Shown piece after piece: positions 47,818-52,395 of a DNA stretch of 64,000 nt. The notes under the pieces are model-generated. The model did not search any database. It was not told the DNA's origin and saw nothing but the letters and a program-made list of their open reading frames with translations. The translations under genes were made by a program, and so were the position numbers. The DNA is taken from the NCBI GenBank assembly GCA_947453945.1, contig CANGJB010000001.1, positions 62,001 through 126,000 of the forward strand. The letters are read 5' to 3'. Position 1 is the first letter of the stretch, and each line of letters opens with the position of its first letter. Origin of the DNA: Sphingomonadaceae bacterium (lineage in GTDB: Bacteria; Pseudomonadota; Alphaproteobacteria; Sphingomonadales; Sphingomonadaceae).

Positions 47818-47820
47818 TGC

Positions 47821-47923
47821 CTCGCTGACGGTTACCGCGGACGGGCCGCCTTTTGCCAGGACAGACAGGTCTGCAAGCCCGGCAAAAGGCGGCCCTCGCT
47901 CTTGCGGTCCGGAGCTCAGCGAG
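47821..47923. repeat. Long intergenic inverted repeat / extended hairpin
   Basis: Perfect 15-bp arms gggccgccttttgcc (47843-47857) and ggcaaaaggcggccc (47881-47895), with outer arms ctcgctga (47821) and tcagcgag (ending 47923). Confidence 0.8.
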
Positions 47924-48272
47924 CCTCGATTTTAGCTGAACCAACCGCTCGCAGAGGTGATCTGGCCCTGCGCAGGGTTGAACCAAGTCGAGTTTCTCGG
48001 CTTTTACGCGCCTTGGGCGCTCCCCAATTGGGTCAACATGCTGGATGCCCACGTGAGAACAGCATTTGTATATCGGTTCGATTATGTGTAGTTATGCTTA
48101 TGGGGTTCGGCGGTTCGGCTAGCAGTGCAGATGGGGGCGAGGGGGTGTCACAATGACAAATCTACCCTGCTCGGGGTTGCTCTGTGATGCCGCTTGATCG
48201 CTTTGATCTCAGAAAGCGTTTCGTCACCCGATGGCAATGGCACTTTGCTGTCTCATAAAGAGCTTCAGGATA

Positions 48273-48806
48273 ATGCAATCTGGCAGCCACGCTCTGAGGT
48301 ATAGCTGGCCGACGAAGATTAGAACTTCTTTGTATAAGAAGCTGATTGGTCTCGTACGGCTATATTACAATCGCGTTTGGGGCATGCATATCGCGGAAGG
48401 GGCGCGGATTTCGCTCACTGCAAAGCTCGACAAGACTTACCCTGATGGTCTGCATATTGGCACATACAGCGCAGTCACATTCCGTTCGTCGGTGATGACG
48501 CACGACTTTGTCAACGGTGTACACCTGCAGACCCGGATCGGCGCGTACTGCTTCATCGGAGCAGGGGCATTGATCATGCCTGGAGTCACTGTCGGCGATC
48601 ATTGCATTGTAGGTGCAGGCTCTGTCGTGTTGCGAGACGTACCGCCACATTCGCTTGTATTCGGCAACCCGGCCCGGGTCATGGAGAAAGGCATCATGAC
48701 AGGCGAATTCGGACGGCGCTTGCGCAATGCCGAAGCAACACCGGTCGCACATGGGTCCGATTCTGTGCCTATTACTGATGCAGCGTTGTCAGGAGCCGCA
48801 TCGTGA
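48273..48806 (+). CDS. Left-handed beta-helix (hexapeptide-repeat) acyltransferase
   Basis: LHIGTYSAVTFRSSVMTHDFVNGVHLQTRIGAYCFIGAGALIMPGVTVGDHCIVGAGSVVLRDVPPHSLVFGNPARVM. Confidence 0.88.
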   Translation: MQSGSHALRYSWPTKIRTSLYKKLIGLVRLYYNRVWGMHIAEGARISLTAKLDKTYPDGLHIGTYSAVTFRSSVMTHDFVNGVHLQTRIGAYCFIGAGALIMPGVTVGDHCIVGAGSVVLRDVPPHSLVFGNPARVMEKGIMTGEFGRRLRNAEATPVAHGSDSVPITDAALSGAAS

Positions 48807-49153
48807 ACGCGATTGCTGACCAGATCCGTGCTACCTTCAACAGCCTGTGGGCAGAAGACCACGACGAACCGCCGCCACCGCTCCTGAACGATACGATCCT
48901 GCTGGAAACCGGCTTCGACAGCATGGCTTTCGCGGTACTTGTTGCGCAACTGGACGATGATCTGGGCGTCGATCCGTTTGCGCTTGATATGGATGCCGAT
49001 CCGCCCATCACCTTTGCGGATTTCGTCGGCTTCTACGAGCGCTGCATCGCTGCAACCGAAGGGCAAGGTCCCGGTACAGTTATGTGGCAAGATGGCGGCG
49101 GGGCCTCACCGATTACCACTACACCCGTGAGCGCCGCATCCATCCATGCCTGA
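48803..49153 (+). CDS. Acyl carrier protein
   Basis: 116 aa; phosphopantetheine site ETGFDSMAFAVLVAQLDDDLGVDPF and downstream ITFADFVGFYERC; GTG start overlapping the upstream stop. Confidence 0.82.
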   Translation: MNAIADQIRATFNSLWAEDHDEPPPPLLNDTILLETGFDSMAFAVLVAQLDDDLGVDPFALDMDADPPITFADFVGFYERCIAATEGQGPGTVMWQDGGGASPITTTPVSAASIHA

Positions 49154-50447
49154 CATTGGCAGTCGATTTCTTGGCCTGAAGCCCGTGCCAGATTTTGTCG
49201 TTTTGGATGCCGCGACTGGATCGCTCACTGCGGGTGAATTGGTGGATCTGGCTCAAAGCACCCCGATCGGCCTTGGCCCCAAGGATCTCGTAGGGCTTCG
49301 TTTCGCCTGTCCCGCCAATCTGGCACGTGCGCTGTTCCTGCTTGATGGCCTGGTCGGGGGAATGGTCCTGTTGCCGGCTTCTCTCACGGATGATCAGGTT
49401 GCCGCGCTGGCGCAGCGGATCGGGATCACAGCCGTGATCGATGCCGTGCCGGGCGCAAAGCCACTGCCCGCTGTTGCTCCGCGGGCCCTTACGCGGTGGG
49501 CGCTCACCACCTCGGGCACGACCGGCAGCCCCAAGGTGGTCGACTATACCTTTGCGGTTCTGGCGCGGTCCATCCGGAAGCGTCGGCCGGGGCGTCCACC
49601 CGGCGTCTGGGGCCTGATGCTCGATCCTACGCGGTTTGCTGGCTCTCAAGTGCTCTTGCAAAGCCTGCTTGGGGGTGGCCGCTTGGTCAGCCCTGATTTC
49701 AACGCGCAGCTTGGTGAACGGGTAAGCCATCTGGTCGGGGGTGGTTGTACTTACCTGACCGCAACGCCGTCGTTGTGGCGCCGGATGCTTATGACGCCGG
49801 ACATTGGGCAGTTGCCATTGCAGCGGCTTCAACTGGTGGGGGAAATAGCCGACCAATCCTTGCTTTCGGCGCTAACGAGAAGGTTCCCGCACGCGCGGAT
49901 CGTACACGTTTATGGTTCTACTGAAGCGGGGCAAGGGTTCGGCGTGGACGATGGCCGGGCTGGATTTCCGTTGTGCATGCTCGATCGACTACCGCCAGAC
50001 CTGCAGATGAAGGTAGTTGACGGCATTTTGTGGGTGCGGCCGGAAGCGGCACCGACCGGCGAAGGCGTACTCTATGATGCAGAAGGCTATATCTGCACGG
50101 CCGACCGCGTGCGGATCGAGGGTGACCGTGTGTTTTTCCTTGGCCGGGCCAGCACGGCCGTCAATGTAGGCGGGACCAAAGTGCAGCCGGAGGAGGTCGA
50201 GGCTGTCCTGCGCGATCACCCCGCCGTGGCCGAATGCCGGGTTAGCGCGCGGCCCAGCGCCTTGCTCGGAGCCTTGCTTGTCGCGGAGGTCGTTGCGGGA
50301 CCGGCCGCACCGTCGGATCTTCCGCTTGCGCTGAAGCGATTCTGCCGCGAACGACTTCCCCGCGCGGCCCAGCCCGCAACGATTACGCTCGTTGCAGCGA
50401 TCGCGACCACAGGAGCGGGCAAGTTGGCACGCGGACCAGCCGTATGA
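49146..50447 (+). CDS. AMP-dependent ligase (adenylation enzyme)
   Basis: [72 protein letters not shown]-terminal TTGAGKLARG. Confidence 0.9.
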   Translation: MPDIGSRFLGLKPVPDFVVLDAATGSLTAGELVDLAQSTPIGLGPKDLVGLRFACPANLARALFLLDGLVGGMVLLPASLTDDQVAALAQRIGITAVIDAVPGAKPLPAVAPRALTRWALTTSGTTGSPKVVDYTFAVLARSIRKRRPGRPPGVWGLMLDPTRFAGSQVLLQSLLGGGRLVSPDFNAQLGERVSHLVGGGCTYLTATPSLWRRMLMTPDIGQLPLQRLQLVGEIADQSLLSALTRRFPHARIVHVYGSTEAGQGFGVDDGRAGFPLCMLDRLPPDLQMKVVDGILWVRPEAAPTGEGVLYDAEGYICTADRVRIEGDRVFFLGRASTAVNVGGTKVQPEEVEAVLRDHPAVAECRVSARPSALLGALLVAEVVAGPAAPSDLPLALKRFCRERLPRAAQPATITLVAAIATTGAGKLARGPAV

Positions 50448-51163
50448 AGACGGTCATCGTCACCGGCGCCTCGCGCGGGGTGGGCCTGGCTCTCACCATT
50501 CGTTTGTTGGCAGAAGGTTGCCGCGTGGTTGCAGTCAATCGGACCCGGTCTGATGACCTTGCTGCGCTCGCGGAGCGTCACGCGGGCCAATTGCTGTTTC
50601 AATCGCTCGATATGGGCGATGCCGATGCCGTGGTGGAGACCGGACGCCGGCTCGCCAAGGATGCAGGCCCGATCTGGGGACTGGTGAACAATGCGGCCAT
50701 CGGATCGGACGCTCTGTTTGCGATGGCCCGGCGCGGAGACATGCAGCGTATCATTGACACCAACCTGACTGGGCCGATCCTGCTGACCCGCCAGATCGTG
50801 CCAGGCATGATTGCGCGGCGTGAAGGACGGATTGTCATGGTGACTTCCGTCAATGCGAGGACCGGTTATTCAGGCCAGGCAGTCTATGGTGCGACCAAGG
50901 CCGGGCTTGAAGGTTTTGCGCGGTCATTATCGCGTGAGGTTGGCAAACGCGGGACGAGTGTGAATTGCGTTGCACCAGGCTACATGGAAACGGCACTGAC
51001 AGCAGGCTTGACCGGGGATCGTTTGGCGTCTGTTGTTCGCCGGTCCCCTCTCGGTCCAGCTACACCTGATGAAGTCGCCGCTGCTATTCAGTGGCTCCTT
51101 TCGCCCGAAGCTGCACGAATTACCGGAACGGTCGTGACAGTCGATGGCGGTAGTTCAGCTTGA
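50444..51163 (+). CDS. FabG-like SDR (3-oxoacyl-ACP reductase-like)
   Basis: TVIVTGASRGVGLALTIRLLAEG, NNAAIGSD, TSVNARTGYSGQAVYGATKAGLEGFARSLSREVG, TGTVVTVDGGSSA. Confidence 0.9.
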   Translation: MKTVIVTGASRGVGLALTIRLLAEGCRVVAVNRTRSDDLAALAERHAGQLLFQSLDMGDADAVVETGRRLAKDAGPIWGLVNNAAIGSDALFAMARRGDMQRIIDTNLTGPILLTRQIVPGMIARREGRIVMVTSVNARTGYSGQAVYGATKAGLEGFARSLSREVGKRGTSVNCVAPGYMETALTAGLTGDRLASVVRRSPLGPATPDEVAAAIQWLLSPEAARITGTVVTVDGGSSA

Positions 51164-51189
51164 GCAAGTTTCAATTGCTTGGTGAATAG

Positions 51190-51563
51190 ATGGAACGAAT
51201 TCCAGCGAACAGGCGTTTGCGAGTTTCGCCAGCAGAATGCTGGGACGGCAGCTGCAGGGCTGGTCCATGCTGAGGAACAGGGTCTCGATTGGCAGCTCGT
51301 CGCGCATGCGCCCATTGAAGCTCTAGACTTAGCCGTTCTGCATCGGCTTTCCCAGCGCGATGTGGTGCTACTCCACGCCGACCTCCCCGCACCATGCAAG
51401 CACGGCATTGGACGTCAGTGCCGTGCCGTTGTCGCTGACGATCATGCCGGGCTTGCCACGTTCGGCGATGAGATCGGCCAGCTCGCGCGCAGTCTGCGCC
51501 CGGAGATAGGGGTGGCGGGCACTGCGCGCAGGCATTCCCGAGTCACATCGGGCATGACGCCGG
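51190..51563 (-). mobile_element. Degenerate IS3-family transposase (OrfB integrase core) remnant
   Basis: Minus strand reads MPDVTRECLRAVPATPISG ... MIVSDNGTALTSNAVLAWCGEVGVE*HHIALGKPMQNG*V*SFNGRMRDELPIETLFLSMDQ, matching the recalled IS3 pattern (IVSDNGTELTS...W..[22 protein letters not shown]) with stops and frameshifts. Confidence 0.85.
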
Positions 51564-52020
51564 TCAGCGCGCGTTGTCCAGTGTCCCGCTGAGCGGCATC
51601 AGGAAGTCTGTGGCATAGCGCGTGGCTTTTCCATCCGGCGGCGGTGCGGATCACGTCAAAATAGTAGCGCCCGTAAACGATGACGCCTCTGCCGTGCTTG
51701 CCTAGCCCTATCCCGTTGACATAGGCGCGGATCGAGGCGGTTTGGCCGGTGTAGGCGGTCACCGCAAAGTTGCTCAGATAGTGCGCCATGTGCGCCATGT
51801 GCGCCGTATTCGCGTAAACGTTGGTGTGGAAGTCGCGAATGCCGTCGTGCCCCAGCATCGCGGAGAGCCCAATCCCGGAAAGATCGAACACCGCATCCTC
51901 GGTGAAAACCGCGAGAATGCTGTCAATGTCTCCCATCGAATCGAGGGCGTGGCCATTGGCGATCACAAGATCTTTGATCGCAATCCGGTCGTCTATCGGA
52001 ACAGGGAACTTGGCGGTTGG
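51564..52020 (-). pseudogene. Frameshifted SnoaL-like gene
   Basis: DDRIAIKDLVIANGHALDSMGDIDSILAVFTEDAVFDLSGIGLSAMLGHDGIRDF...YGRYYFDVIRTAAGWK, then dropping one A gives ATRYATDFLMPLSGTLDNAR* ending at 51564. The annotated frame instead runs into the IS remnant. Confidence 0.7.
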
Positions 52021-52028
52021 CTCGTCAC

Positions 52029-52395
52029 CTAGTCGCTGAGGAGTTCATGGAAGCGCTGCATGCGCTTTTCCTGGCCGGGCAAGTGGAAGCCCTTGGAACC
52101 ACGTGATTTGAGGCCGAGCTGCTGGCTCGTGCCGATCGAAAGGTCCTGATCGGCAAGGAAGCCGAGCGAGACACCGTCGCCATAGACCGAGTGATGGTGG
52201 ATCGCATCGTGACGAAGCGGGGCAGGGCCTACAGGCGTCTCGACCTCCTTCATGCCCTTCACCGGCGGATAGAGGCACCAGTGCTGGAAAATGCACTTTT
52301 CCGGATCAGTCGGGTGCGGTTCGGTCGGCAGGATCTGGCACTGCTCGGGTGGCATGGTGATGGTGAGATTGGGGAACGGCGTGCGGAGGAATAGT
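52029..52395 (-). pseudogene. C-terminal remnant of a Rieske oxygenase alpha subunit
   Basis: FLRTPFPNLTITMPPEQCQILPTEPHPTDPEKCIFQHWCLYPP...IHHHSVYGDGVSLGFLADQDLSIGTSQQLGLKSRGSKGFHLPGQEKRMQRFHELLSD*; the Rieske domain and catalytic helix are missing. Confidence 0.8.

Follow-up and report, generated by a model that had tools for sequence, protein, structure and literature searches.

The 64,000-nucleotide stretch of Sphingomonadaceae DNA analysed here (the window) carries, within a Novosphingobium catabolic island, an intact quartet of overlapping genes on the forward strand that encode, in order, a hexapeptide-repeat (LbH) acyltransferase, an acyl carrier protein (ACP), an adenylate-forming ligase, and a FabG-like SDR (Table 1). 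The quartet is probably a horizontally acquired, transferable acyl-decoration operon for an envelope glycan. In the proposed mechanism, the AMP-ligase would adenylate a short carboxylic acid and then load it onto the phosphopantetheine arm of the dedicated ACP; the SDR would reduce, or set the state of, the β position to give a 3-hydroxyacyl-ACP such as 3-hydroxybutyryl-ACP; and the LbH enzyme would transfer the acyl group from the ACP to an amino or hydroxyl group of an envelope-bound sugar or sugar polymer, with the glycan acceptor supplied in trans in the host genome. We infer the enzymatic steps, the nature of the acid, the role of the ACP as acyl donor to the LbH protein, and the in-trans acceptor; the bases counted for decoration are intact frames, catalytic residues, conserved gene order, co-inheritance, foreign composition, and the glycan context of relatives. 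When surface sugars bear acyl groups such as 3-hydroxybutyryl, antigenicity and flagellin recognition change, and to our knowledge the ketosynthase-free supply of such groups in bacteria has been little studied.

Table 1. Genes of the cassette and features flanking it (positions in the window)
Feature	Position	Strand	Details
AT-richer leader of the cassette	47818..48272	.	GC profile
LbH (hexapeptide-repeat) acyltransferase	48273..48806	+	177 aa; Pfam Hexapep 1.4e-11
Acyl carrier protein	48803..49153	+	116 aa; GTG start; Pfam PP-binding 1.7e-4; phosphopantetheine Ser40
Short stand-alone adenylate-forming ligase	49146..50447	+	433 aa; AMP-binding 2.6e-16; AMP-binding_C 3.1e-12
FabG-like SDR, 3-oxoacyl-ACP reductase class	50444..51163	+	239 aa; Pfam adh_short 6.5e-50
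Degraded IS3-family transposase remnant, ISSpma3-like	51164..51560	-	Directly 3' of the cassette; in-frame stops

The four open reading frames and their end-to-end overlaps are as the first-pass annotation of this DNA had described them, with 4 bases common to LbH and ACP (48803/48806), 8 to ACP and ligase (49146/49153), and 4 to ligase and SDR (50444/50447) over an extent of 48273–51163. An in-frame ATG at 48231 provides a second possible start for the LbH gene. The PP-binding match of the ACP is weak, barely above the Pfam cut-off, and the ligase is predicted to be the loader of this ACP. The top NCBIfam model for the SDR is FabG (TIGR01830, 3.5e-57), which scores under the equivalog cut-off, and NCBIfam returned no equivalog for the LbH protein, the ACP, or the ligase.

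Horizontal acquisition, also proposed at first pass, is well supported by a GC and codon-usage profile that is foreign to the surroundings. GC3 is 0.58–0.67 in the four genes versus 0.77–0.86 in a sample of other window genes; a CAI-like index, for which nine of the latter served as reference, is 0.40–0.58 versus 0.66–0.76. The upstream region that had been called AT-richer has a GC content of 47.5% at 48201–48400, against approximately 63–65% around it. A DNA search of a plasmid collection returned no homologue of the leader, and a search for direct repeats flanking an insertion gave just weak chance pairs. The single terminator-like site falls inside the SDR gene. The IS3 remnant reported immediately downstream is likewise present: approximately 51257–51550 is 80–82% identical at the DNA level to IS3-family transposase genes, including that of ISSpma3, and a 74-base probe from it matches no second copy in the assembly.

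The flanks hold several further features. A near-perfect 18-bp inverted repeat at 47843–47895 (GGGCCGCCTTTTGCC...; predicted −38 kcal/mol) lies right after a zinc-type ADH gene and is perhaps the terminator of that gene, near the left edge of the foreign segment. On the other side, 51442–52355 (reverse strand) holds a truncated SnoaL/NTF2-like gene and, past it, a fragment of a Rieske oxygenase that consists of the C-terminal part alone. The SnoaL gene contains a short MAHMAHMAHY repeat and merges at its 3' end into the IS3 sequence; on pNL2 of N. aromaticivorans, intact relatives of the gene and of the fragment are near neighbours.

Relatives were collected by a ligase alignment search of a genome collection, and among the best 80 of the 148 related stretches, which were kept, nearly all have the ACP-ligase-SDR order (the triad). 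The carriers include Alpha-, Beta-, and Gammaproteobacteria, Myxococcota, Thermodesulfobacteriota, Chlorobiota, Planctomycetota, Actinomycetota, Chloroflexota, and Zixiibacteriota. The full LbH-ACP-ligase-SDR order (the tetrad) occurs, among the loci kept, in the window and in 22 further non-redundant loci, all alphaproteobacterial. In the ligase tree, built by a quick method, these 23 tetrads fall within one 27-row clade (SH-aLRT 97), the remaining four rows of which have no LbH gene, and the window ligase is sister to that of N. cyanobacteriorum (support 95). The pairwise identities of the four proteins correlate across tetrads (Spearman 0.76–0.84; 0 of 300 permutations as high), which indicates that the tetrad moves as one unit. 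Its window proteins are 42–68% identical to their counterparts in the nearest tetrads, the ACP being 68% identical to that of N. cyanobacteriorum and the LbH protein 45–64% identical to those of syntenic relatives. Within its own genus the cassette is sporadic, with 2 of 36 other searched genomes carrying it, and the viral contigs searched contain no relative. An order-wide genome search gave a match in the cassette's own genome only, with four candidates scored per genome, a sampling from which prevalence is not derivable.

Residue conservation was compared across 83 ligases, 81 ACPs, 80 SDRs, and 23 LbH proteins, and in these alignments the expected catalytic residues are present in all four window proteins. 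The GFDSMAF motif noted at first pass is found in the ACP, with Asp39 and Ser40 present in 81 of 81 ACPs; the ligase keeps the P-loop TSGTTG, the STE motif, Asp320, Arg334, and Lys426; the SDR has the catalytic tetrad Asn107-Ser135-Tyr148-Lys152; and His91-Asp92 of the LbH protein (numbered from the ATG at 48231) is invariant in 23 of 23 proteins. These residues, with the homologous sets in relatives, support at the level of sequence the self-contained ligase, ACP, SDR, and transferase logic that the first-pass annotation had put forward. The window LbH protein keeps 42 of 43 conserved columns. The ligase departs from 6 of 76 near-invariant columns (H134Y, Y159L, S205T, T229Q, G231V, and A257G; rank 3 of 83 in departures) and the SDR from 12 of 66 (rank 3 of 80), which may reflect another substrate or relaxed constraint. 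Positions 229, 231, and 257, which we take to lie in or beside the acid pocket from a by-eye alignment to 4-coumarate:CoA ligase, provide a lead only.

Relaxed constraint would fit a copy that has been decaying since its transfer, its frames still intact and no working acceptor at hand, a reading that we consider unlikely. Consistent with decay, none of the six ligase changes is found in the sister species N. cyanobacteriorum, degradation is seen in the adjacent IS3, SnoaL, and Rieske remnants, an acceptor locus is absent nearby, and a search upstream of the cassette found no sigma-70-like promoter. However, the four frames are intact and every catalytic residue is kept despite the divergence from the nearest tetrads, and the SDR of N. 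cyanobacteriorum has 13 departures that cover most of the changed positions of the window SDR, which argues that the SDR changes are not random decay in the host genome.

Structural models were compared with the PDB. The AlphaFold model of the LbH protein consists of an N-terminal helix followed by a β-helix, and its nearest structures are maltose and galactoside O-acetyltransferases and the N-acetyltransferase Pcryo_0619; on the model, either O- or N-acylation could therefore be catalyzed. That the protein resembles CoA-using O- and N-acetyltransferases counts against the decoration reading. The ligase model (pLDDT 87) is nearest to adenylation enzymes, many of which load carriers; these include NRPS A-domains and carrier-loading enzymes such as PchD and DltA, with MenE and 4CL also near. 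That the fold is close to DltA and further adenylation enzymes that load carriers, together with a partial match to TIGR03098, could suggest a D-alanylation-like (DltA/DltC-like) or exosortase-A-type acyl-ligase system, which we consider highly improbable: an SDR is foreign to Dlt systems, and membership in Dlt D-alanylation was rejected because the ORFs examined in the cassette and its surroundings include no DltB/DltD-type gene. Assignment as the exosortase-A acyl-CoA ligase was rejected because the TIGR03098 score is 60.7 bits, against a cut-off of 592.35.

The first-pass annotation had noted that comparable sets occur in surface-polysaccharide loci, and the neighbourhoods of the relatives bear this out. 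The loci were picked by similarity to the window and their genes were called by a home-made procedure, so the counts give association and not prevalence. Of 60 triad loci, 50 have one or more glycan families within 9.5 kb of the triad; the neighbours in these 60 loci include a DegT aminotransferase (33/60), NeuB (25/60), and a CMP-sugar cytidylyltransferase (24/60), as well as GT4, PIG-L, and WcaJ. A count for PseB was set aside because matches to the SDR of the cassette had entered it. In 44 of the 60 loci, the triad has a GNAT or LbH acyltransferase gene at most 1.4 kb away, which suggests a single acyl-donor core whose acyltransferase partner is exchangeable. This compact family is spread widely over the phyla and lends itself to simple assays, and the acid found for one ligase-ACP pair would hint at the acid for many uncharacterised glycan loci. 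Ketosynthases related to two probe sequences occur in just 4 of 82 related loci, so the absence of a ketosynthase is the norm of the family; in Azospirillum, a triad sits with a KSIII in a pseudaminate/flagellin locus.

Glycan genes are also near 14 of the 22 other tetrads. The tetrad of Haematobacter pOT1-6 lies in a plasmid glycan locus with a glycosyltransferase, a StrS aminotransferase, an NDP-sugar epimerase, and ManC; that of a Qingshengfaniella plasmid adjoins a glycosyltransferase; and that of N. mangrovi has a flippase-like gene and a GT4 gene alongside. Seven other tetrads, some of them on short contigs, have none of the scored glycan or envelope families within 9.5 kb, and since the window cassette likewise has no glycan genes nearby, the glycan link of this copy is one by association. 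The cassette is a real and intact representative of a widespread module, which its context clearly associates with glycans, and the interest of the window copy is chiefly that of an orphan, horizontally moved, and divergent member.

Several reported systems resemble the cassette in part. In the Vio island of Pseudomonas syringae, VioB, VioR, and an ACP make the N-(3-hydroxybutyryl)viosamine of flagellin, and deletion of vioR abolishes the product by MS (PMC3927599). By gene description, vioS-vioB-vioR-acp shares with the cassette a dedicated ACP, a FabG-type reductase, and an acyltransferase, whereas it builds the acyl chain with a KSIII (VioS), has no AMP-ligase, and has sugar genes alongside (PMC3927599). 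The wfpC-wfpG genes for the O-polysaccharide of Flavobacterium psychrophilum, which are predicted to make the R1 group (3,5-dihydroxyhexanoyl on Qui2NAc4N), similarly include an ACP, a 3-ketoacyl-ACP reductase, and a PglD-like LbH acyltransferase but have two ketosynthases and no ligase (PMC6519341). Measured against this Vio/Wfp R-group type, the cassette has the DS-motif ACP, the FabG-type reductase with its catalytic tetrad, and the LbH acyltransferase; it has an AMP-ligase in place of the ketosynthase and no neighbouring nucleotide-sugar or glycosyltransferase genes. The published 3-hydroxybutyryl-viosamine cassettes follow the logic proposed for the cassette, but with ketosynthases; that ketosynthase version is established for P. 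syringae flagellin and predicted for the F. psychrophilum O-antigen.

Sets of ACP, AMP-synthetase/CoA ligase, and FabG are reported in flagellin-glycosylation islands of Aeromonas Group II (PMC7874193) and of Enterobacteriaceae (PMC4875605), whose authors propose a "liposugar" (PMC7874193, PMC4875605), and the genes exclusive to Yersinia ruckeri serotype O1 include an ACP, a ligase, and a reductase in the order of the cassette (PMC5552943). Unlike the cassette, none of these sets, likened here by reported gene names, has a named LbH enzyme, and the Aeromonas sets sit with pse genes and luxE/luxC (PMC7874193). In Shewanella MR-4, Qui4N carries 3-hydroxybutyrate or 3-hydroxy-3-methylbutyrate depending on the medium (PMC3210612), which would fit the activation of free acids. 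The closest likeness is with the tetrads of Rhodobacterales and Sphingomonadales (L005, L006, L008, L009, L013, and others), which share order, family, and clade with the window; many of them, unlike the window, have GT2, VanZ, Ugd, or β-helix/RTX genes nearby. The window thus fits the ACP-ligase-SDR module of glycan loci by gene order and its homologous ligase, and the alphaproteobacterial LbH tetrad by the LbH gene directly upstream, clade membership, and co-inheritance. To call the pathway undescribed, as was done at first pass, is too strong, since the module recurs in glycan loci and similar sets are published; what stands is that no LbH-first locus with an assigned product was found. The refuting case named at first pass, a known module in surface-polysaccharide loci, applies by half, to the ACP-ligase-SDR part, and a literature search, drawn mostly from papers available without subscription, found no product assigned to the LbH-ACP-ligase-SDR order.

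As the first-pass annotation had stated, no ketosynthase, glycosyltransferase, or nucleotide-sugar gene was seen near the window cassette; the nearest glycosyltransferase match on the same contig, the sole other one there, lies approximately 87 kb away. The acceptor, if any, is necessarily supplied in trans. In the assembly (86% complete), no NeuB was found and there is one strong DegT match, whose locus we read as an RfbFGH-type CDP-sugar/deoxysugar route and not an amino-sugar route; both observations count against decoration, and a hydroxyl may be acylated instead of an amino sugar. A UDP-glucose dehydrogenase lies near an RmlA/C/D-like set. In the assembly, G000:C12:32001-51900 (L094) contains RfbF/G/H-like genes, a GT2 gene, and further envelope-like genes; it is an apparent CDP-glucose-derived deoxysugar locus and a possible source of the acceptor glycan.

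The orphan context, seen in the window and in the seven other tetrads, together with a host genome that has no obvious amino-sugar acceptor route and the odd residues of the ligase (Y159L, T229Q, G231V, and A257G) and of the SDR (mostly common to N. cyanobacteriorum), can be rationalized with a cassette repurposed to make a small acyl product, either free or linked to a lipid, or to serve island catabolism, and not to decorate a glycan. We regard such repurposing as rather unlikely, as the codon usage is foreign, unlike that of the catabolic genes of the island, the conserved columns of the LbH protein point to retained acyl transfer, and most relatives stand in envelope-glycan contexts. There is also a slim chance that the orphan tetrad of the window, with a reshaped acid pocket in the ligase and an SDR substrate region changed as in N. 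cyanobacteriorum, acylates without depending on a polysaccharide locus next to it; it would attach an unusual acid, perhaps derived from island metabolism, to an envelope molecule or to a secreted small molecule. Glycan decoration remains the reading that we favour.

The neighbourhoods of the 22 related tetrads show three further recurrences. VanZ-family genes lie within approximately 6 kb of seven tetrads (L006, L016, L021, L027, L029, L030, and L034), a link that does not extend to the host genome, as no VanZ was found in the assembly. Secreted-looking β-helix and/or RTX repeat proteins are encoded near seven (L006, L008, L009, L013, L029, L030, and L034) and are perhaps polysaccharide-modifying enzymes. 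Four Sphingobium tetrads (L013, L024, L025, and L028), two of which (L024 and L025) have no scored glycan gene nearby, adjoin a conserved thiE-like gene and so occupy a recurrent site.
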